From Podaxis mareebaensis (Eukaryota; Basidiomycota; Agaricomycetes; Agaricales; Agaricaceae), in the NCBI GenBank assembly GCA_018524725.1, contig JAEUWP010000553.1, positions 1-64,000 on the forward strand: DNA of 64,000 nt, written 5' to 3'. The notes beneath the pieces are model-generated. The model saw nothing but the letters and a program-made list of their open reading frames with translations. It was not told the origin of the DNA and ran no database searches. The translations under genes and the position numbers were made by a program. This document shows positions 17,407 to 59,821 of this stretch, piece by piece (the first letter of the stretch is position 1; the number at the start of each line of letters is the position of its first letter).

Positions 17407-18771
17407 TGTTATGAACCAGCCCAGCACACCCTGCTGCAACCATATCTATATTGCCTTAGTCCATGAACTTGGACTCCCCAATGCCTCCTGCCAGACCACC
17501 CAACCTACAGGTATACCAGATGAAGACCCCATTCACTATTGTAATCAAGCCTTTGCCAATTGTTGCCTTCCTGGTCACACATCTCTATTCTCTGAAGACT
17601 GGCTGACACCTGGACCCCTATTCTACTTGACCAACTGTATGATGACTGAAATCCTCCACATCACCTGGGAGAATGCTCCCTTCACTCACATCTTCAATCC
17701 TGATGGATTATACATCCAAACAACTCACAATAACTTCAACTCCACCTGGGCACATGGTTGGAAGATGATTCCTTACACTGGAGAGCCAATCATATTCCTT
17801 CATCCTTACATGATGTATCCACCTGAGGTCATCCCACATATCATCAAGTACAAAGTCACTCAAGGACTCTACTTTTGAGAAGTAGAAGTCTATTGTCTCA
17901 ACCCTAACTCCAATGAACCTCCAGCCATCCCTCCCCACAGATTGCAGCTTCCTCCACTCCATAGCATCGACTCCAACATCCCCAGCATTGATGACTCAGA
18001 ACCCACTGCAGATCCTCCTCCTTATCCACCTCCCTATGTCACTGCAGACATCTCATTGTCATCATTGTCATCATTGTCACCACACTGCAGCATGCTCGTT
18101 ATTCATGAGTCAGATTTTTTTGACTCACCTCTTGTTGGGAACTTCTCTGTTCCCAGTTCTGCCTTGTCACCAGCCTCTTACTCCTCTGACTCCAATGGAT
18201 ATCTTCACCCCAATATGGACTTGTAACATAACTAGTAAATAGTTTCTTTCTTATCTCTCTTGCTACAGATGCTTTGCCTTGTATCCCTGTATCCCACCTG
18301 AACTCTGACTTGTATGATTTCCTTATCTAGCTAGTTTCCCTTCTTGTCTAGTTTCCATCTTTGTCTTAGTTTCTATTCTCGTCCCACTCCACTCCATAGT
18401 TTCACTTCTATTGACTCTTGGACTTGTAGCCTTACTTCATCATAGTTACCTTCTTAGGACTTTAGAAGTAAAGCTTAAATAGCTGCTCATGTACTGGAAG
18501 CACAAGCTTCCTATATTCTCAAATTCAGAATATTGCTTTGCTTTATCTCTGGATTGACATTAGTTCATGATCAGTGTGGTAGTAAACATCTTATCAGTCA
18601 TACTCTCGACTAATAAGCATTCAACCTCTGAGTGTGCTTAACTGGACACTTGCCTCACCACCTTCTTATCATGATCCTTCTTGCTAGATCCTAGTGCCTC
18701 TGCAAACCATCTAGTGAGATAGCTGCCCCCTAGCAAAGCTTAGGTGACCAGTGATAAGGACCATCCTAACA
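17407..18771 (+). repeat. Solo LTR, family 1 (1,365 bp), TSD ACAGC
   Basis: It starts TGTTATGAACC and ends CATCCTAACA. It is flanked by ACAGC at 17402-17406 and 18772-18776. It aligns end to end with the LTRs of the chromovirus at 49484-59742. Nearly every CpG of those younger copies is TpG or CpA here, making it the oldest of the three. Confidence 0.93.
17411..18226 (+). pseudogene. U3 ORF in the old solo LTR, one TGA
   Basis: ATG is at LTR base 5. There are 272 codons in one frame, against 275 in the young copies, so the net length difference is in frame. The only interruption is TGA at 17876-17878, where the copy at 49.5 kb has CGA (context Y-F-R-E-V-E-V). The Ser-rich acidic tail and the DMDL end are retained. 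Frame retention despite heavy CpG loss argues that the frame was protein coding. Confidence 0.75.
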
Positions 18772-49081: not shown

Positions 49082-49483
49082 ATGTCTCCAAGCTCACCCA
49101 CTGTCAACACCCTCAAAGCACTATCCTCTAAAGACCTAGAGGCTCTCTTGGCTCAGAAGAGAGCCAAAGAAGAACACCTCATGAAGGAAGCTGAAGAGAA
49201 GCAGAAGAGAAAGGAGGAATGTTGTGCAAGAAAAGAGGCCAAACACCTGGCTCACAAGGAGGCAGAGAAAGAGAAGAAGGCTGAGGCTGAATGCCTGGCT
49301 TGTGAGGAGGTGGAGTGTCACTCCAAGGAGGAACAAGAGAAGAAGAGGAAGGAAGAAGTTTGTTGGGCTCATAAATGTCAAGAATGGGCTTGTAGAGATC
49401 ATGAGGAAGATGCCCATCAGTGGGATGCAGTGGAAGCCCATCTTCAGGCACAAGGTAAGTGTCAAACTCATCCTAGCATCTTG

Positions 49484-50852
49484 TGTTATGAACCGCCCTA
49501 GCACACCTCGTCGCAACCGCATCTACAATGCCCTAGTCCATGAACTTGGACTTCCCAACGCCTCTCGCCACACTACCCAAGATACGGGTATACCAACTGA
49601 AGACCCTGCACGTTATCGCAATGAAGCCTTTGCTAACCGTCGCCTTCCTGGTCACACATCCTTATTCTCTCAAGACTGGCCAATGCCCGGTCCACTATTC
49701 TACTCGACCGACTGTATGATGACTGAAATCCTCCACATCACTTGGGAGAACGCTCCCTTCACTCACATCTTCGATCCCAACGGGTTATATGTTCAGACCA
49801 TCCACAATAACTTCGACTCTGCCTGGGCCCACGGTTGGAAGATGATCCCTTACGCTGGAGAGCTGATCGTATTCCTTCACCCTTATATGATGTATCCACC
49901 CGAGGTCGTCCCGCATATCATCAAATATGAAGTCGCTCGTGGACTCTACTTTCGAGAAGTAGAAGTCTATCGTCTCGACCCCAACTCTGACAAACCTCCG
50001 GCCATCCCTCCCCACAGATCGCAGCTTCCTCCATTGCGCAGCATCGACTCCAACGTCCCCAGCATCGATGACTCTGAACCCGCCGAAGAACCTCCTCCCT
50101 ATCCACCTCCCTACGTCACTGCAGACGTTTCCTCGTCATCGTCATCATTGTCATCACCTCACTGCAGCATGCTGATTATCCACGAGTCAGATTCCTCTGA
50201 CTCCTCTGATTCACCCCTCACCGGGAACTTCACCGATCCCAGTTCCGCCTCATCTCCCGACTCTTACTCTTCTGACTCCAGCAGACAACTTCACCTGGAC
50301 ATGGACTTGTAATATAACTCGTAAATAGTTTCCTTTCTATCTTGTTACAGACGCTTCACCTTGTACCCCTGTATCTCGCCTGAACTCCGCCTTGTACAAT
50401 TTCCCTAGTTAGTTAGTTTCCTTTCTTGTCTAGTTCCTATTCTTGTCTTAGCTTCTATTCTTGTCTCGCTCTGCTCCGTAGCCTCCCTTCTATTGACTCT
50501 CGGACTTGTAGCATTACTTCATAGTTACCTCTTTAGGACATTAGAAGTAAAGCTTAAATAGCCGCCCATGTACTGGAAGCGCAAGCTTCCTATATTCTCA
50601 AATCTCAAGTTATTGTTTACCTTTAACTTTTGATTGACGTTAGCTCACGATCAGTGTGGTAGTAAATGCTCTATTGGTCATACTCTCGACTTATAGACGT
50701 TCGACCTCCTGAGTGTACTTAACTGGACACTTGCCTCGCCACCTTCTTATCGTGATCCTTCTTGCTAGATCCTAGCGCCTCTGCGAACCATCTAGTGAGA
50801 TAGCCGCCCCCTAGCAAAGCTTAGGCGACCGGTGATAAGGACCAACCTAACA
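49484..50852 (+). repeat. 5' LTR, family 1
   Basis: It contains the 275-codon frame 49488-50312. A TATA-like TTAAATAGC follows at 50555-50563, so transcription should start downstream of the frame. The frame would then lie in U3 and be absent from the 5' end of the genomic RNA. Confidence 0.9.
49488..50312 (+). CDS. U3 reading frame within the 5' LTR (274 aa)
   Basis: ATG is at LTR base 5, overlapping the terminal TGTTATG. The protein has a conserved-looking globular part (HELGLPNASRHTTQD, TEILHITWENAPFTHIFDPN, HGWKMIPYAGELIVFLHPYM, PPEVVPHIIKYEVARGLYF). A Pro-rich segment, a Ser-rich acidic region with SSDSSDSPLTG, and the end QLHLDMDL follow. There is no stop in this copy. The same frame, in the 3' LTR, is the C-terminal third of the gene starting at 56862. 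I know no family for it. Confidence 0.7.
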   Translation: MNRPSTPRRNRIYNALVHELGLPNASRHTTQDTGIPTEDPARYRNEAFANRRLPGHTSLFSQDWPMPGPLFYSTDCMMTEILHITWENAPFTHIFDPNGLYVQTIHNNFDSAWAHGWKMIPYAGELIVFLHPYMMYPPEVVPHIIKYEVARGLYFREVEVYRLDPNSDKPPAIPPHRSQLPPLRSIDSNVPSIDDSEPAEEPPPYPPPYVTADVSSSSSSLSSPHCSMLIIHESDSSDSSDSPLTGNFTDPSSASSPDSYSSDSSRQLHLDMDL

Positions 50853-52200
50853 TTATATAGGAAGCTTCCCTCGGCAACCCTTGTGTCCGTTGTAAGCGAC
50901 TAGACGACACACGATATCTCTAGGGTGACATGGGCCCTAATCCCATCACGGACCTAGCCAACACTAGACTGGATCTGCGAGTAGACTGCAAATCTATGTC
51001 AGGAGATATGCCCAAACATGGTGATCAGGATAGCAACCTAGATCTTAAAGGCCCGCAGATTGGAGAGAGGAAACCGCTCCGTCTAAAGCAATTTAGACAG
51101 ATTGTAGGAACCTTGGCGAACCCGGAAAACAACTGCGACCTACTCTGGACCGATAACAAAGGGCAGAGCCAATCCTTGAAAGCCTGGATAACCGGCCATT
51201 ATCTTGGATAACGAGTAAAGGAGAAAAGCACCCACATCAAGCACTAGACCAGCTGTGGGAGACAATAGCCGTGCCATGGAATAACTCTAAGCCACGTACA
51301 AAGAAGGAGTATCCGATCGAAGGGTAACCGGAAAGGAAAGATAGACCCCTAGCGCAAGTGTGGATTTTGCACACTACAGAAATCGTCCACCATCCAGAAG
51401 CACAACTGGATTCGAGAAAGATTAAAGCTGTACTGCAAGAAATCCCAGAGATACTCGAAATCAAGATAGGATTTCGTCCAAGCTAGTCAGCAACCACCCC
51501 GTGATACCTTCACCACCACGGATTCTTCAACACCACCCTGTTCTCAGGAAAAGGAAAGCAACAAGCTCAGACCAAGCCCGATCCCAACCAATCTTCCTCC
51601 TCATGATCCAGAAAATCCAAACAACCTTGACAACACCAACCGACCCTGCCCTCTGATCCCTCATTTCGGCTTCGTACCCACTCACCAGAGCAAACCCCAT
51701 ATTCACCACCCCCACCCATCCAACGCGCCAAATCCTTTCACAACACTCCTCCCCCCATCAAACCCTCAACCAGCGCCACAGCAGGACTTATCAGACAAGC
51801 TTCTCTCGGAGAGCGCTCTGAGCGAATTAGCCAAGCAGCTACGACACTGGAACAATCTACCCAGCCAAACCCCCTCCTTCAACACAGAGGAGATCCTGAG
51901 CACATCGACACCAAGTCTGAACACTCATACCACTCAGGAAGCAACCAACAGTCTGAATCCCCAGAACAATCCCCTGAAGAGCCAACACTCCACCTGCTCA
52001 TCCTCACCTCAGTACAACAGGCCTGGTACAACTCATTCACACTGGAACAACAGCTATATATCAGAACTACCTCACCCACCGATCGAGAGTGTATCCTCAA
52101 CAACCTCATCAACACACACGGACCAGACCCATACAATCCGACTACCCCGTATCCTGATACAACCTCCAGAGCCCAATCACCTCAGTCAGTACATTCCACC
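50853..52200 (+). other. Leader region between 5' LTR and gag
   Basis: There are 1.35 kb with no recognised domain. A frame at 50930-51211 is open but has no recognisable content. 51500-52200 is Pro/Ser/Thr/Asn-rich in translation and could encode an N-terminal extension of Gag, but I could not connect it in frame. Confidence 0.4.
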
Positions 52201-53229
52201 ATGTTGAACACCCGAGACCCAAAGGTCGAAAAGCCCGAGCCTTTCTATGGAGACCCCTCTGACTACCCATGATGGAAGAGAGACCTACAAATTTACTATG
52301 CATGCCAACCGACCAATCTCTCCTCCGACTCTGCTAAGATCATGTTTGCCCTCCTCAATATGCGAGGACTGGCTACAACATGGAAGGAAGCCTACATCAC
52401 CTCCCATACCACCAGAAACACCTTCAACACAACACAAACCCTATCACAGTTCTTCACCGAGTTGGACAACTCATTTAAACAAGCCTCTACCACCGTTGTC
52501 AGCATCGACCACCTCACACACCTCAAACAAAATGGCAGACCAATCGAAGAATACATCAACCAGTTCAAAAGCCTATGCACCTCAGCAGGCATCTCTCATA
52601 ACGAGACCAAAGTTGCATTATTCCTTAAAGGACTGGACCCATATTACTGCAAAGGCGTCATTAACCAAAGCCCAGCAGAAAACGACCCTGAAGCTGTCTA
52701 CACAGCAGCCCGCTGCACAGGAGGACTGGCGCACTTTCAATTGTTTGCTGATCGCCTGAGAAATTCGTACCGACACTACTCGAACTCCCATCGCAAGAAG
52801 CATTCGAAATCTCGTATTTCAAGCAAAAGCTACAACTTCTGAGTGTATACACTGTCTCAAACAACTCGTAACCCCCCAGGATATGGTCCCATGGACATTG
52901 ACAACATCCTCATGAACAAGCTCAATAATATTGACAGAACAGATAGCGAATCTGAACAGTCATCAGACGAAGACTCTTCAGAAATATCATCCAACGACGA
53001 CTACTACACAAGTGAACAAGTTAATCAAATCGTCGAAGCACGCGTCGAATCAGAACTCAACAACCTCCTACCCCAAGAACTCCACGAACTCAGAAGCAAA
53101 GGTTTATGCTTCATCTGCAAAACCAGCAAGCACTATGCACGGTCGTGCCCACTCAACAAGCGAAAATCAAAGAACCGAGCCTCCTATTCCCGAAACCAAC
53201 ATGGAAGACGATTCCGAAAACACCGATGA
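52201..53229 (+). pseudogene. gag: Gag of the second chromovirus
   Basis: The frame starts with ACC ATG at 52201 (MLNTRDPKVEKPEPFYGD). It contains a retrotransposon capsid-like region (IEEYINQFKSLCTSAGI, KVALFLKGLDPYYC), an acidic Ser/Asp/Glu linker and a CCHC knuckle CFICKTSKHYARSC (53107-53148). TGA codons at 52270-52272 and 52840-52842 replace expected arginines. The TGA at 53227-53229 follows CGA and may be the true stop or a third such change. No frameshift. The pol frame is -1 relative to this one. Confidence 0.88.
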
Positions 53230-53334
53230 ACCAGACTCAACAACATCAAAGAAGAGTCAAGTGACAAAGAAGACTCAAAAGGGAAAGGAAAGGATTTTAC
53301 CAGAAGGGACTAGCCAGCATCGCATCTAGTTCCA

Positions 53335-56300
53335 GTAACTTGCAAATCGCGAGCAGCGATTCTGAATATTCATTCGATGGATATCCATGACCAAGAAACC
53401 CACCTAATTATCGAAAACCAACTCAAGCCATTAATCAAGTAACTGCCCAGCAACATAACAAGATCCTATATCTTCCGGCGCGCATACACCACAATCAACG
53501 ACAACCTATCGACACACTCATCCTGCTAGATTCAGGAGCAGGAGGAAACTTCATCGATGATACTCTTATCAACCAATGGAACCTCAAAACACGCTCCTTA
53601 CTGAAACCAATCGAAGTCCGTAATGCTGATGGATCGATTAATAAAGCTGGAACAACCACCAAAGAATGTATACTTAATATCGAGATTGACAACTGGATCA
53701 CACTGGTTATGACACGAGTGACGAAACTCGGCAAACCCAAGATTATCCTTGGAGCCCCATGGCTTATGAAACACAATCCCGATATCGACTGGAGAAATCA
53801 AACACTTACCTGGAGAAACGACGACCCAGGACATATTTATCGAGAACTTCTCCATACCATGGAAGAAGAAGAAACTGATGAACTCAACCATATCACATTA
53901 GAACCCGAATTGTTCCTCGAAATCAACTTCAAAGCAAATGCTTCGCAAGCCATTGCACAACAGTACGGAGATCAGAAGAAAGAATCTGACCCACGAAAAG
54001 TCATTCTGAAAGAATTCCACAACTACCTCGACGTATTTTCCGAGAAGAAAGCATCATGATTTCCACCAAGCAGACCTTGGGATCACAAGATTGAACTCAA
54101 GGATTCATTCGAACCCAAATCATTCAAACCTTATCGACTATCACCTATTGAAATGCAAGAACTCGACAAGTTCATTGACAAAAATCTCGCTAAAGGATAC
54201 ATTCGTCCTTCCGAATCACCCATGGCATCACCCTTCTTCTTCGTAGGGAAGAAGGATGGCAAACTACGACCATGCCAAGATTATCGTTACCTCAATACGC
54301 ATACCATCAAAAACGCGTACCCGATACCACTCATATCTTCACTACTCGACAAGCTCAGAGGATCTAAATGGGTTACAAAATTCGACGTTCGAGCCAGATA
54401 TAATAACATCCGCATCTGCGAAGGTGACCAATGGAAAGGAGCCTTCAAAACGCCCAGAGGATTATTTGAACCGACAGTCATGTTCTTTGGAATGTGCAAC
54501 AGCCCCGCAACATTTCAATCTATGATGGACCATATCCTCACCCACCTCATTCGAAGAGGACAAGTACTCGTCTATATGGACGACATCCTCATTCACGCCA
54601 AAACCCGAGAAGAACTCCAACAGATCACACGGGAAGTACTCGACATACTACGCAAACACGACTTATACCTCAAGCCTGAAAAATGCGAATTCGAAAAACA
54701 ACGTGTCGAATACCTAGGAGCAGTAGTTACTCCTACCTCAATTGAAATGGATGCCGCCAAACTTGAGGGAATCAAGAATTGGCCCATACCGAAAACAACT
54801 CAAGACGTCTGAAAATTCATCGGCTTTTGCAACTTCTACCGATGATTCATCTGGAACTATTCCAAGCACGCAGCGCCCCTCAACACACTCATGTCAAAGA
54901 ATGTCAAGTTCGAATGGAAACCCGAGCACCAACAAGCCTTTGATGAACTCAAAAAGAAATTCAAAGATCGGCCTATTCTTATCGCACCAGACCCATCAAA
55001 ACCCTTCGAAATCGAAACTGACGCATCACAATATGCAGCAGGAGCTGTGCTCTACCAAAAAGACGAAAACGGCATTCGTCGCCCAATAGCCTTCCAGTCC
55101 AAAGCCTTTACCCCAACAGAACGCAACTATCATTGCTCTGAACTCAAATGGCTTGCTATAATTATCGCACTACGCACATGGTGCCACTACCTCGAAGGAT
55201 CGCCACACGAAATCATCGTCTGGAGCGACCATGAAAATCTATCAAGATACAAGGAACCACAAACCTTCAATAAATGACAAGTCCATTGGGTACAATTCAT
55301 GCAGCGATTCCAACCCAACCTCAAGATCAAACACATCCCTGGTTGGAAGAATGGACCAGCAGACGCACTGTCAAGATGACCCGACTACGCACCACAAGAA
55401 CCAGAAAACCGAGACATAACTGTATTTGATCAATCAATGATCACCATCATCACAGAAGATGACAAACGAGTCATCAAGAAGCATCGAGAAATGATAGACC
55501 CCAATGATGATGACACACCAGATCAAGAATTGCCTACACATGGGAATCGAATCCTGATTCCTAATGAACCATCATTACATCGCAAATTACTCCAACGAGT
55601 ACACGATCATCAAACCGCAGGACATCCTGGAATAGCTGAAACACTACGAAAACTCACTGAATACGTTTACTGGCCAGCCATGAAGGACTATGTCACCGAA
55701 TATGTTAAAGGCTGCCCGACCTGCCAACGGCACAAGATCATTAGACGGCCAGACAAACCACCTTATCAACCGATTCCAGCACCTCAATCGATGCGACCCT
55801 TTTTGCAAATCTCTATGGATCTCATCACGGATCTACCACCATCCCATGGATATGATTCTATTTTGGCCATAGTGGACCATGGCCTAATGAAGGGGATAAT
55901 TTTAGCCCCTACTACGAAAACCACTGACAGCCAAGTCATTGCTTCTATTTTAGTCAACTGCCTATTTTCGCAATATGGCCTTCCCGATAAGGTCATCTCA
56001 GATCGCGACCCCCGATTCACATCCAAAGCAATGCGAGAACTGTACAAACTCCTCGACATCAAGCCCGCCTACTCCACAGCCTACCACCCACAAACCGATG
56101 GATCCACTGAACGCTTCAACCAAGAAATTGAAACCTACCTTGCCATCACCACTTCAAGTGACCTGAATGAATGGAGCAAGTACCTTCCAATCTACGAATT
56201 CTGCCACAACAACCGTCCCCATGCTGGACGCTCCGAAACTCCATTCCAACTACTCTATGGCTACACCCCAAAAGCGTTTCCAACAGAAATGGAACCAACA

Positions 56301-56852
56301 AACAATCCATCAACAGAAAACTGCATGGATTGATTAATGGAAGCATGCCACCACGCCATTCAAGCCCACAACCATGCCTGTCAAATCATGGCAAGACGCA
56401 CAGCCAACTATCGACTCCCCACCTACTCCATAGGAGACCAAGTATGGTTAGACACCCGCAATCTTCCATTGCAAGTCAAATCAAGAAAACTCGCCCCGAA
56501 ACGCAAAGGACTGTTCGAAATCATCAAGAAGATATCCGCAGTCAACTTCGAACTAAAGTTACCCAAAACATGGAGAATTCACCCCGTGTTTCACACCACC
56601 TTACTGACTCCAGTAACCGAAAATAACCTATACGGCAAACACTACCCATGACCCGCACCAGAACTGCACAATGACGAAGAACATTATGAAGTTGAAGCCA
56701 TCCTAAATCATCGAAGACTGCGCAACTGCCTCGAATTCTTAGTCAAGTGGACTGGCTACCCACACTCCAAAAATACATGGGAACCGCAGTCTGCATTCTC
56801 CAATGCACAGCAAATCCTCAATGCTTATAAAAGGAAGAACAAACTTCAATGA
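53335..56852 (+). pseudogene. pol: Pol of the second chromovirus, eight TGA stops in one frame
   Basis: The domain order is protease (LLDSGAGGNF near 53522), RT (VYMDDILIH near 54571), RNase H (IETDASQYAAGAVL near 55012), integrase zinc finger (CPTCQRHK near 55710) and core (SMDLITDLP, SDRDPRFTS, GSTERFNQE), and chromodomain (YEVEAILNHRRL to about 56810). The frame contains TGA at 53388, 54057, 54810, 54843, 55275, 55377, 56331 and 56649. All are in the same frame, all are at positions where arginine fits, and there is no TAA, TAG or frameshift. The natural end is TGA at 56850-56852. Confidence 0.94.
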
Positions 56853-56861
56853 CCACTGGAG

Positions 56862-59202
56862 ATGTCAACCACCAACAACCAGCAACCCACCGCTCAAACT
56901 GAAGCTCAGCAAGATACTCAACTACCTCCCAACTCTACTACAAGCACTGGCCATAACACTAACAGCATCCCGTCCCTCACAGAACCACCCACCACCTTCC
57001 AAGAGTGCTTGAATGCCATCACAGAACACCTCGCCATACAACACATCACGACGACCACGATTGCGCAGGATGCCGTGCCCTTCCTCATCTTGCACCCACT
57101 CCGCCCGCTCCCAGCCTACTCAACCCACATCGGAACCCGAGAATTCATCTGGCCAATCAACACCGGATCCCCGATCGAACTACCTTCCCTCCCTAGTGAA
57201 GTATCCGACCTTGACTCCGAACTCATTCGACTCAGAGAATCTCTGGACTGGGTTAACTCCATCACCCAGGACGCCGCTCTTCGAAGGAATCCACTTTTGG
57301 TTCAGAACTGCAACGTCTACAGGGAAACTATTGCTACTATTGTGCATTCTGCTAGAATGCTCATTCGACTTTTGAACTCAATGGAGACAGCCCGACTTGC
57401 TTGTATTGGCCACAACATCTCCCCTCGACTACGTAGTGACATCAAGAGCTCAAGCACTACCACCAAACTTCTCATTGATAAAGTCAGTCTACGACTCAAC
57501 ACACTTAGCAGAACTAGCTCTCTTTCGAATCCTCCACTATCCAGACCTACCCAACGAGCAGATCGACAATCACAATCTGATTCAACTCTACATGAGACTC
57601 GCGCCTTACATTCCCGGACTTCCCCAACTCCAAGTCCACATCTCATGCCTCCAATTCAGGGAAGTGTTAGATCTTATCAAGATGCTAGCCTTTCATCGCG
57701 AACCGAGGCTCTACTGTCATGATCTACCAATGCAAGCCGCTATGTGGCTCCACATCAAAGAATACAATGACGTCCTGACTCCCCAACAGACATTCCCAAT
57801 CTGGGCAACCGCCGCACTCCTAGCCGACCTATCACTCCTCCTTGGCACCTGCTCCCATCCCGACCTCCTCCACTACTTCGCCCTTCACGCACTTTTCCAC
57901 AAAGGACTGATCAACACCAGCGGTATCTGTGTACTGATCAATACCGAGGAAGTAACGTCACCAGATCATCTCTACGAGCTAGGGACTATAATGGAACCCC
58001 CTACCTTCCCCGTTGTGCCAGAAGCCCAAGTCCATCAAGTGCACAATTGCACCAATCCATCGATGCTGCCATCTCCGCCCTCGCTGACAACATCATCAGC
58101 ACCAGAAGCAGGCAGACCATGTGCCCCAACTCCTATACCTTCAGCCTCCCCTGCATCAATCAGAGAACAACACGGGATACTCGACAGAGCCACTGCGTGC
58201 ATTCGCTCCCTCGTCCATTGGGACAGACACGGGAACCAACACATACAGCTGATGGACATCACGAATCTCCCTTCTCCGACGTCGGAAGTGGAAGATCATA
58301 GACCACCCACTCCCCACCCAACACCAGTCTCAGATAGTAGCGAGATGGAACTCGCTAATAATGAAGGGGATAATGTTATGAACCGCCCTAGCACACCTCG
58401 TCGCAACTGCATCTACAACGCCCTAGTCCATGAACTTGGACTTCCCAACGCCTCTCGCCACACTACCCAAGATACGGGTATACCAACTGAAGACCCTGCA
58501 CATTATCGCAATGAAGCCTTCGCTAACCGTCGCCTTCCTGGTCACGCATCCTTATTCTCTCAAGACTGGCCAATGCCCAGTCCACTATTCTACTTGACTG
58601 ACCATATGATGACTGAAATCCTCCGCATCGCTTGGGAGAACGCTCCCTTCACTCACGTCTTTGATCCCAACGGGTTATATGTTCAGACCATCCACAATAA
58701 CTTCGACTCTGCCTGGGCCCACGGTTGGAAGATGATCCCTTATGCTGGAGAGCCGATTGTATTCCTTCACCCTTATATGATGTATCCACCCGAGGTCGTC
58801 CCACATATCATCAAATATGAAGTCGCTCGTGGACTCTACTTTCGAGAAGTAGAAGTCTATCATCTTGACCCCAACTCCGACAAACCTCTGGCCATCCCTC
58901 CCCGCAGATCGCAGCTTCCTCCATTGTGCAGCATCGACTCCAACGTCCCCAGCATCGATGACTCTGAACCCACCGAAGAACCTCCTCCCTATCCACCTCC
59001 CTATGTCACCACAGACGTTTCCTCATCATCATCATCATTGTCATCGCCTCACCACAGCATGCTGATTATCCACGAGTCAGATTCCTCTGACTCCTCTGAT
59101 TCACCCCTCACTGGGAACTTCACCAATCCCAGTTCCGCCTCATCTCCTGACTCTTACTCTTCCGACTCCAGTGGACAACTTCACCTGGACATGGACTTGT
59201 AA
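56862..59202 (+). CDS. Extra 3' gene reading through the polypurine tract into U3 of the LTR
   Basis: It starts 10 bp after pol (ATG 56862). Part 1 (56862 to about 57480) reads MSTTNNQQPTAQTEAQQD, then FQECLNAITEHLAIQHI and SEVSDLDSELIRLRESLDWV. The coherent continuation (LALFRILHYPDLPNEQIDNH, LDLIKMLAFHREPRLYCHDL) is in another frame from about 57513. Either a frameshift or an intron ending at CTTAG/CAG (57509-57512) lies between; no donor with the right phase was convincing. The second frame then runs without a stop through the polypurine tract (E-G-D-N-V) into the LTR frame, ending at TAA-preceding DMDL (59202). No known domain was recognised. An Env-like position, but no signal peptide or membrane span was seen. 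Confidence 0.65.
58361..58373 (+). other. Polypurine tract inside coding sequence
   Basis: ATGAAGGGGATAA directly precedes the 3' LTR start and is simultaneously read as codons for N-E-G-D-N of the extra gene. Confidence 0.8.
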
Positions 59203-59742
59203 TATAACTCGTAAATAGTTTCCTTTCTATCTTGTTACAGATGCTTCGCCTTGTACCCCTGTATCTCGCCTGAACTCCGCCTTGTACAATTTCCCTAGTT
59301 AGTTAGTTTCCTTTCTTGTCTAGTTCCTATTCTTGTCTTAGCTTCTATTCTCATCTCGCTCCGCTCCGTAGCCTCCCTTCTATTGACTCTCAGACTCATA
59401 GCATTACTTCATAGTTACCTCTTTAGGACATTAGAAGTAAAGCTTAAATAGCCACCCATGTACTGGAAGTGCAAGCTTCCTATATTCTCAAATCTCAAGT
59501 TATTGTTTACCTTTAACTTTTGATTGACGTTAGCTCACGATCAGTGTGGTAGTAAACACTCTATTGGTCATACTCTCGACTTATAGACGTTCGACCTCCT
59601 GAGTGTACTTAACTGGACACTTGCCTCGCCACCTTCTTATCGTGATCCTTCTTGCTAGATCCTAGCGCCTCTGTGAACCATCTAGTGAGATAGCCACCCC
59701 CTAGCAAAGCTTAGGTGACCAGTGATAAGGACCAACCTAACA
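58374..59742 (+). repeat. 3' LTR, family 1
   Basis: Same length as the 5' LTR. Differences between the two are largely C/T or G/A at CpG positions, for example AACCG against AACTG and ACAATGCC against ACAACGCC near the start. Confidence 0.95.
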
Positions 59743-59821
59743 TCTTGCAAACTAACTTCTATGTCTACCAGGGGTGCTTTCCTGTTAGATGTGCTCCTAT
59801 TGGTCCATAGATAATGTTGGG

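Follow-up and report, generated by a model that had tools for sequence, protein, structure and literature searches.

The long terminal repeats (LTRs) of retrotransposons are usually regarded as devoid of coding sequence. Among the closest known parallels to the locus reported here are retroviral genes: lentiviral nef, an accessory gene of the 3' region, reads across the polypurine tract and terminates in U3 (the unique 3' part of the LTR), the sag gene of mouse mammary tumour virus (MMTV) is a long U3 frame within a long LTR, situated ahead of the promoter, and the tas/bet (bel1/bel2) region of foamy viruses holds accessory genes in overlapping frames, one of which enters U3. Among retrotransposons, self-primed elements such as Tf1 use the 5' end of their own transcript as primer, and chromoviruses of this Tf1/sushi type combine a self-primer with a Tf2-like SH3 domain and a chromodomain in pol, features shared by the element described below; Tf1 differs from it in possessing a single open reading frame (ORF) and no gene after pol. 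The DNA analyzed here is a stretch of 64,000 nucleotides from the fungus Podaxis mareebaensis (GenBank assembly GCA_018524725.1, contig JAEUWP010000553.1, positions 1 to 64,000, forward strand), hereafter the window, which at positions 49484–59742 contains a Ty3/Gypsy chromovirus of 10.3 kb with two 1,369-bp LTRs. In all likelihood, this element represents a self-primed chromovirus family with an accessory gene, designated ORF4, that follows pol, reads on through the polypurine tract and terminates within U3.

The kinship with nef, sag and bel is best regarded as a likeness of layout, i.e., a protein frame in U3 that is selected as protein, and not as membership, sequence homology not having been found; the comparison with nef or sag made in a preliminary description of this DNA therefore holds for layout, with no sequence relative to support it further. 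Host and type of element set ORF4 apart from nef, as does sequence within the scope of the searches, and nef is preceded by env, of which no family match was seen here. MMTV sag is almost entirely LTR-encoded, whereas for ORF4 this is true of the last 38% only. The resemblance to the foamy virus region, which extends to a possible internal promoter, is likewise one of layout, with no likeness of sequence sought or known, and it concerns a fungal element with no env family match, in which the overlap of frames is only probable.

Nearer in host, crapaud of Podospora is a fungal chromovirus with LTR variation in U3 and with U3 recombinants (PMC10787394); its LTRs measure 339–443 bp, its variable U3 is shorter than 200 bp, and gag and pol are the only ORFs shown in the accessible part of that report. 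Plant and rotifer LTR elements may have an additional ORF downstream of pol and ahead of the 3' LTR (PMC7264820, PMC11963269, PMC5408684), although, unlike ORF4, these ORFs are internal, in plants often antisense, and none is said to enter the LTR in the available portions of these papers. A survey of fungal Gypsy elements mentions, in the legend to a figure, additional ORFs of unknown function (PMC2864245). Among the papers listed by literature searches, which covered openly licensed work, none was recognisable as describing an LTR element of fungi whose U3 holds a protein frame.

The features that define ORF4 and the repeats it enters are as follows, where dN/dS denotes the ratio of nonsynonymous to synonymous substitution rates.

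57013–59202, plus strand: ORF4, with its ATG at 57013 in 28 of 30 copies and its stop at 59200 in 28 of 30
58378–59202, plus strand: U3 frame, the last 274 codons of ORF4 (translated search, diversity, dN/dS, indel phase)
49488–50312, plus strand: U3 frame in the 5' LTR, 274 amino acids, free of stops (ORF list, genome search)
58363–58373, plus strand: polypurine tract, read as ORF4 codons (sequence, 30-copy alignment)
49484–50852, plus strand: 5' LTR, 1,369 bp
58374–59742, plus strand: 3' LTR, 1,369 bp
49479–49483, no strand: left target site duplication, TCTTG (sequence)
59743–59747, no strand: right target site duplication, TCTTG (sequence)

The preliminary description had proposed 1,369-bp LTRs flanked by TCTTG, a 275-codon LTR frame starting at base 5, an extra gene reading in frame through the polypurine tract into that frame, and an LTR that supplies the C-terminal third of the product, all of which was borne out. 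Both LTRs, with termini TGTTA...TAACA (i.e., TG...CA ends), and both copies of the duplication were located. The LTR frame begins with the ATG at 58378 and comprises 274 amino acids followed by the stop at 59200 (LTR bases 5–829, or 60% of the LTR). The same frame continues upstream across the polypurine tract and is open in the window copy from 57376 to 59199, representing 601 residues when counted from 57397. Conservation of starts and stops was read from an alignment of thirty 3' ends, in 28 of which a stop at 57010 is kept upstream of the ORF4 ATG; ORF4 accordingly has up to 729 codons, 274 of them (38%) LTR-encoded. The genome searched comprises 36.95 Mb in 429 contigs, and all family copies compared here derive from it. 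With the 601-residue translated query, 49 of 74 scored matches cross the LTR junction in a single frame, while the 274-residue U3 query returned 141 scored frames among 318 candidates, 82 of them stop-free. Since the best candidates were scored first (141 of 318 for the U3 query, 73 of 328 for the 601-residue query), the copy numbers given here are minimum values, and stop-free frames may be over-represented.

Diversity and dN/dS were determined for 25 of the 30 copies, five truncated or badly aligned ones being left out. At non-CpG sites, third codon positions of the U3 frame have a diversity of 0.236, compared to 0.052 at first and 0.030 at second positions. This third-position excess spans the frame and stops at the stop codon, past which the three phases of the LTR are alike (0.091, 0.081 and 0.103). 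The dN/dS ratio is 0.149 for U3, 0.151 for 57440–58000 and 0.281 for the end of pol, and pairwise values between elements range from 0.11 to 0.24 (28 comparisons), below the value near 1 that the preliminary description had named as speaking against a coding U3. Furthermore, all of the 101 indels counted in the U3 frame have lengths that are multiples of three, as do 39 of 40 in internal ORF4, as opposed to 47 of 167 in the remaining LTR (24 copies against the window copy, indels above 60 nt skipped, a shared indel counted once per copy), and the net length over 58300–59199 is divisible by three in 28 of 29 copies.

A control was provided by LTR pairs from single elements, in which all differences postdate insertion, with random C-to-T or G-to-A decay within matching CpG classes as the neutral expectation. 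Six such pairs exhibit 292 transitions and 2 transversions; of the transitions, 182 are nonsynonymous, where neutrality predicts 187 (sd 8.2); pairwise dN/dS within true LTR pairs is 0.33–0.66 because post-insertion decay is transition-only. Between elements, by contrast, nonsynonymous transitions fall below expectation in all seven comparisons (from 29 vs 48.4 to 55 vs 82.7), and 58 of 82 transversions are at third positions; these comparisons cover seven of 15 possible pairs (equal length only), which share elements and are thus not independent. Left out of the LTR-pair test were C31 (16 transversions, judged not to be one element) and C132 (unequal length), while the 5' LTR of C277 has no partner locus. 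The U3 frame is under purifying selection as protein while the element is mobile, and decays freely in inserted copies; selection is placed in the mobile lineage, and not on inserted copies, because between-element dN/dS is low, within-element change is neutral and indels are in phase. It is from this pattern of selection that translation of the U3 frame into protein may be deduced. The phase-specific diversity, dN/dS, indel phase and neutral within-element control rule out that the frame is open by chance or through base composition. They also contradict conservation of U3 as DNA, such as a promoter or enhancer; even though U3 is conserved at many places and its C-rich, G-poor sequence has few stops, a non-protein explanation of either kind is vanishingly improbable.

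The LTR pairs of C129 (the window element), C399, C375, C235, C307, C132 and C68 differ almost only by transitions (0–1 transversions per pair), in some pairs often in CpG context; in the window element, 55 of 1,369 sites differ, all by transitions. This pattern suggests methylation or decay resembling repeat-induced point mutation (RIP) in inserted copies.

Selection also bears on whether the U3 frame might be a separate protein initiated from the ATG at LTR base 5, with the frame upstream of it being part of another product. Retention of the LTR ATG in most copies and the many LTRs that hold an open frame without the upstream part would fit such an arrangement. However, the junction region 58285–58420 is selected in the ORF4 frame (dN/dS 0.23–0.25), none of the 30 copies has an in-frame stop at 58240–58419, and the 49 matches noted above are continuous over the junction, while ATG retention is rendered less telling by the first LTR bases being fixed by the terminal repeat as well. 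A separate U3 protein is, on this evidence, improbable.

The limits of U3 are indicated by the following features, R being the repeated region with which the transcript would start.

50583–50595, plus strand: AAGCTTCCTATAT, LTR bases 1100–1112, putative start of R and self-primer (complementarity search)
50855–50867, minus strand: primer-binding stretch, perfect 13-nt complement of the self-primer
50554–50560, plus strand: TATA-like TTAAATA in the 5' LTR, 23–29 nt ahead of the putative R start
59444–59450, plus strand: TATA-like TTAAATA in the 3' LTR, identical in at least 25 of 30 3' copies

The primer-binding stretch begins at the third base past the 5' LTR, and shuffled windows yield zero matches. 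Self-primer and primer-binding stretch also occur together in four more elements (C399, C65, C79 and C31), so that complementarity between the primer-binding site and an LTR-internal stretch at the presumed transcript start, as in self-primed elements, is seen in the window element and in four others. This match would place the start of the transcript, and of R, near LTR base 1100, and therefore the 274-residue frame wholly within U3. The preliminary description had assigned the frame to U3 from the TATA-like box, which is indeed situated downstream of it; the self-primer match independently points to the same limit. The 5' LTR copy of the frame would consequently lie upstream of the promoter and presumably is not read from it.

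A second frame lies between pol and the 3' LTR.

56862–58301, plus strand: ORF3 frame, with its ATG at 56862 in 25 of 30 copies and its TAG at 58299 in 29 of 30; in the window copy open at 56862–57719 only

The ORF at 56862, the product of which the preliminary description named beside the 274-residue protein, does not share the frame that enters the LTR. ORF3 is in the pol frame, starts 9 nt past the pol stop and overlaps ORF4 by ~1.3 kb. Shuffles of synonymous ORF4 codons in six copies predict 3.4–5.9 TAA or TAG codons in the ORF3 frame at 57460–58297, where none is present (P 0.0005–0.02), while the third frame exhibits an excess of stops in the same test (16–18 vs ~10 expected). The ORF4 codon lying over the ORF3 TAG varies (CCT, TGT, CGT, CAT), and the T that TAG needs is kept in 29 of 29 copies. 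The ORF3 frame is again under selection at 58015–58150 (dN/dS 0.25–0.38). Fourfold-site diversity, determined like the copy trees below from 20 of the 30 copies, is unusually low at 56862–57460 and 58000–58130 (0.02–0.04) when compared to pol (0.173), ORF4 at 57460–58000 (0.164) and U3 (0.258). Probably, ORF3 and ORF4 are two genes that overlap in different frames, the one being conserved where the other is free to vary.

These data also bear on a different explanation, in which ORF3 and ORF4 form one protein via a +1 frameshift or splice near 57385, or in which the synonymous constancy marks an RNA element. The signal of the ORF4 frame rises near 57385 as that of the ORF3 frame fades; ORF4 synonymous sites are free at 57460–58000, indicating that ORF3 imposes no constraint of its own there; the constancy includes 56862–57012, where ORF4 is not yet open; and TGA occupies single ORF3-frame sites in as many as 18 of 30 copies, most others having CGA or CAA. 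The lack of TAA and TAG beyond 57460, the retention of the ORF3 TAG under a changing ORF4 codon and the return of selection at 58015–58150 argue the other way, leaving this explanation unlikely, though less so than the others considered here. An intron at 57433–57508, the length of which would join both frames, was ruled out as this stretch is under codon selection in the ORF4 frame.

Besides the freedom of ORF3 at 57460–58000 and the early fourfold constancy, both of which count against the overlap of two genes, a number of observations weigh against ORF4 as a gene ending in U3. From 57013 onwards, the ORF4 frame contains 117 stops across the 30 copies, 94 of which are TGA, and a single site is TGA in 12 of the 30. 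As the other copies mostly carry CGA or CAA there, the TGA-type stops of single copies are read as a trace of CpG decay. The first 50 codons of ORF4 are without constraint, and the frame appears coding-like at 56890–57025 (dN/dS 0.35–0.39), i.e., ahead of its upstream stop and ATG, which the proposed gene model does not explain; both findings weigh against the overlap as well. Moreover, every copy analyzed belongs to one genome, and no homologue, fold or domain pointing to a function emerged from the protein, Pfam, PDB and AlphaFold runs detailed below.

With ORF4 ending inside U3, its last 274 codons would be present in every LTR. In the genomic RNA, the 3' U3 would be read as the end of ORF4 and, at reverse transcription, copied into both new LTRs, so that selection on the protein would shape the LTR of the next generation. 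Because ORF4 lies >6 kb from the presumed transcript start and is not fused to pol, its expression would require a spliced RNA, an internally started RNA or reinitiation after pol, and ORF3 would represent a second gene in the overlapping frame. One candidate internal promoter was noted.

56826–56832, plus strand: TATAAAA, kept in 24 of 27 ungapped copies

It is a weak candidate because the same bases encode conserved residues. Between the ORF3 and ORF4 ATG codons, an additional ATG is present at one site in 11 of 30 copies.

As regards the proteins, 12 other copies are 83–92% identical to the window copy over 57532–58164. ORF4 would combine an internal domain with a second conserved domain in U3, PPxY motifs and an acidic serine-rich tail; among 19 copies, the U3 domain retains many aromatic and histidine residues, followed by the tandem PPxY and the tail.

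58981–59004, plus strand: tandem PPxY motif PPPYPPPY, conserved in U3 proteins

Of 57 distinct tails, 38 have this motif intact, and most of the others deviate by one proline. PPxY motifs bind the WW domains of Nedd4/Rsp5 ligases and, in retroviral Gag, function as late domains, while acidic tails are found in transactivators; here both features may serve as functional leads only. Most likely, the ORF4 protein is an accessory or regulatory factor. That it controls the expression of the element itself, or particle assembly through a Nedd4/Rsp5-type ligase, is a tentative first guess, more apt to be wrong than right.

The preliminary description had suggested a profile search with the U3 and 56862-encoded proteins; no relatives of the ORF3 or ORF4 protein came to light. 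Pfam returned nothing significant for the ORF3- and ORF4-frame proteins of the window or for 19 U3 proteins, i.e., no env family and no known accessory protein. Among ~5.8 billion proteins, neither the 601-residue query (7,997 candidates scored) nor a profile from the 19 U3 proteins (1,860 candidates scored) found a relative, in a search that requires shared 5-residue words and may miss distant relatives. A control search with an integrase piece from this element returned 1,433 relatives, the best four at 57–63% identity and one of them named Trametes cubensis; the collection therefore holds related fungal elements. Two scans of viral contigs yielded zero relatives, and AlphaFold models of two sequences were uninformative (mean predicted local distance difference test scores of 30.8 and 34.9). 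PDB matches to the ribosomal protein eS10 (E 0.36–0.45) and to others (E 0.2–0.75) were dismissed as not significant. The position between pol and the 3' LTR is that of env, but an envelope-like gene is highly unlikely given the lack of an env family match and of a clear transmembrane stretch, the highest 19-residue hydropathy means being 1.54 for ORF4 and 1.02 for ORF3. The ORF4 peak sits just under the usual transmembrane cut-off.

The U3 segment itself seems to have a separate history in part of the family. For a group of four copies (the window copy, C399, C103 and C168), trees of 20 copies give a branch of 0.054 for the internal region and 0.035 for the LTR tail, compared to 0.31 for the U3 frame, and in the internal-region tree the four nest inside other copies. 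Relative to their nearest internal relatives, transversions amount to 0–5% upstream, 1–15% at ~58400–59240, 1–9% up to ~59480 and <3% thereafter, the left edge of the divergent segment being sharper than the right. Between both groups, 14 fixed differences fall within U3, compared to 2 in the upstream 2.5 kb and 1 in the LTR tail, and synonymous divergence between U3 types is ~1. A swap of the U3 coding segment by recombination with a more distant lineage seems the best fit, the alternative being a burst of change within U3. The depth of this divergence, the large size of the family and the selection still acting also speak against a recently captured host gene carried as cargo with no task for the element, an extremely improbable origin even though no relatives outside the element family were found. 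The preliminary description had missed both this exchange and the probable overlapping gene.

Taken further, two overlapping accessory genes, one completed by U3, may have evolved here independently of retroviruses, with the U3-encoded domain exchanged as a cassette at reverse transcription and the LTR acting as both promoter and swappable protein module, a proposal to which we give slightly less than an even chance. A trait of complex retroviruses, an accessory gene running into U3, would, given ORF4, also have arisen in a fungal element, and the well over a hundred copies in one genome represent natural material for studying the role of the protein and its expression from a repeat that doubles as promoter.

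The remaining features of the element and its family within the window are the following.

52342–53229, plus strand: gag region in two frames (Pfam Retrotrans_gag and Ty3_capsid; zinc knuckle weak, below cut-off)
54153–56651, plus strand: pol in pieces (Pfam reverse transcriptase, RNase H, integrase and Tf2-like SH3)
56652–56852, plus strand: chromodomain (PF00385, E 2.2e-16) and pol stop at 56850
17407–18771, plus strand: old solo LTR of the family, with its target site duplication ACAGC intact and one stop in the U3 frame

The order of Pfam domains (gag, reverse transcriptase, RNase H, integrase) is that of Ty3, and the chromodomain closes pol; together with the LTRs, polypurine tract and target site duplication, these features identify the element as a Ty3/Gypsy chromovirus. 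The pol stop is a stop codon in 25 of 30 aligned copies. The window copy is decayed, its pol being fragmented and the internal part of its ORF4 containing one stop. Of the three copies in the window in which the preliminary description considered the U3 frame to be preserved, those in the 5' and 3' LTRs are open, while the old solo LTR has the one stop listed above. Between the primer-binding stretch and the gag region, a leader of >1 kb extends over 50868–52200.
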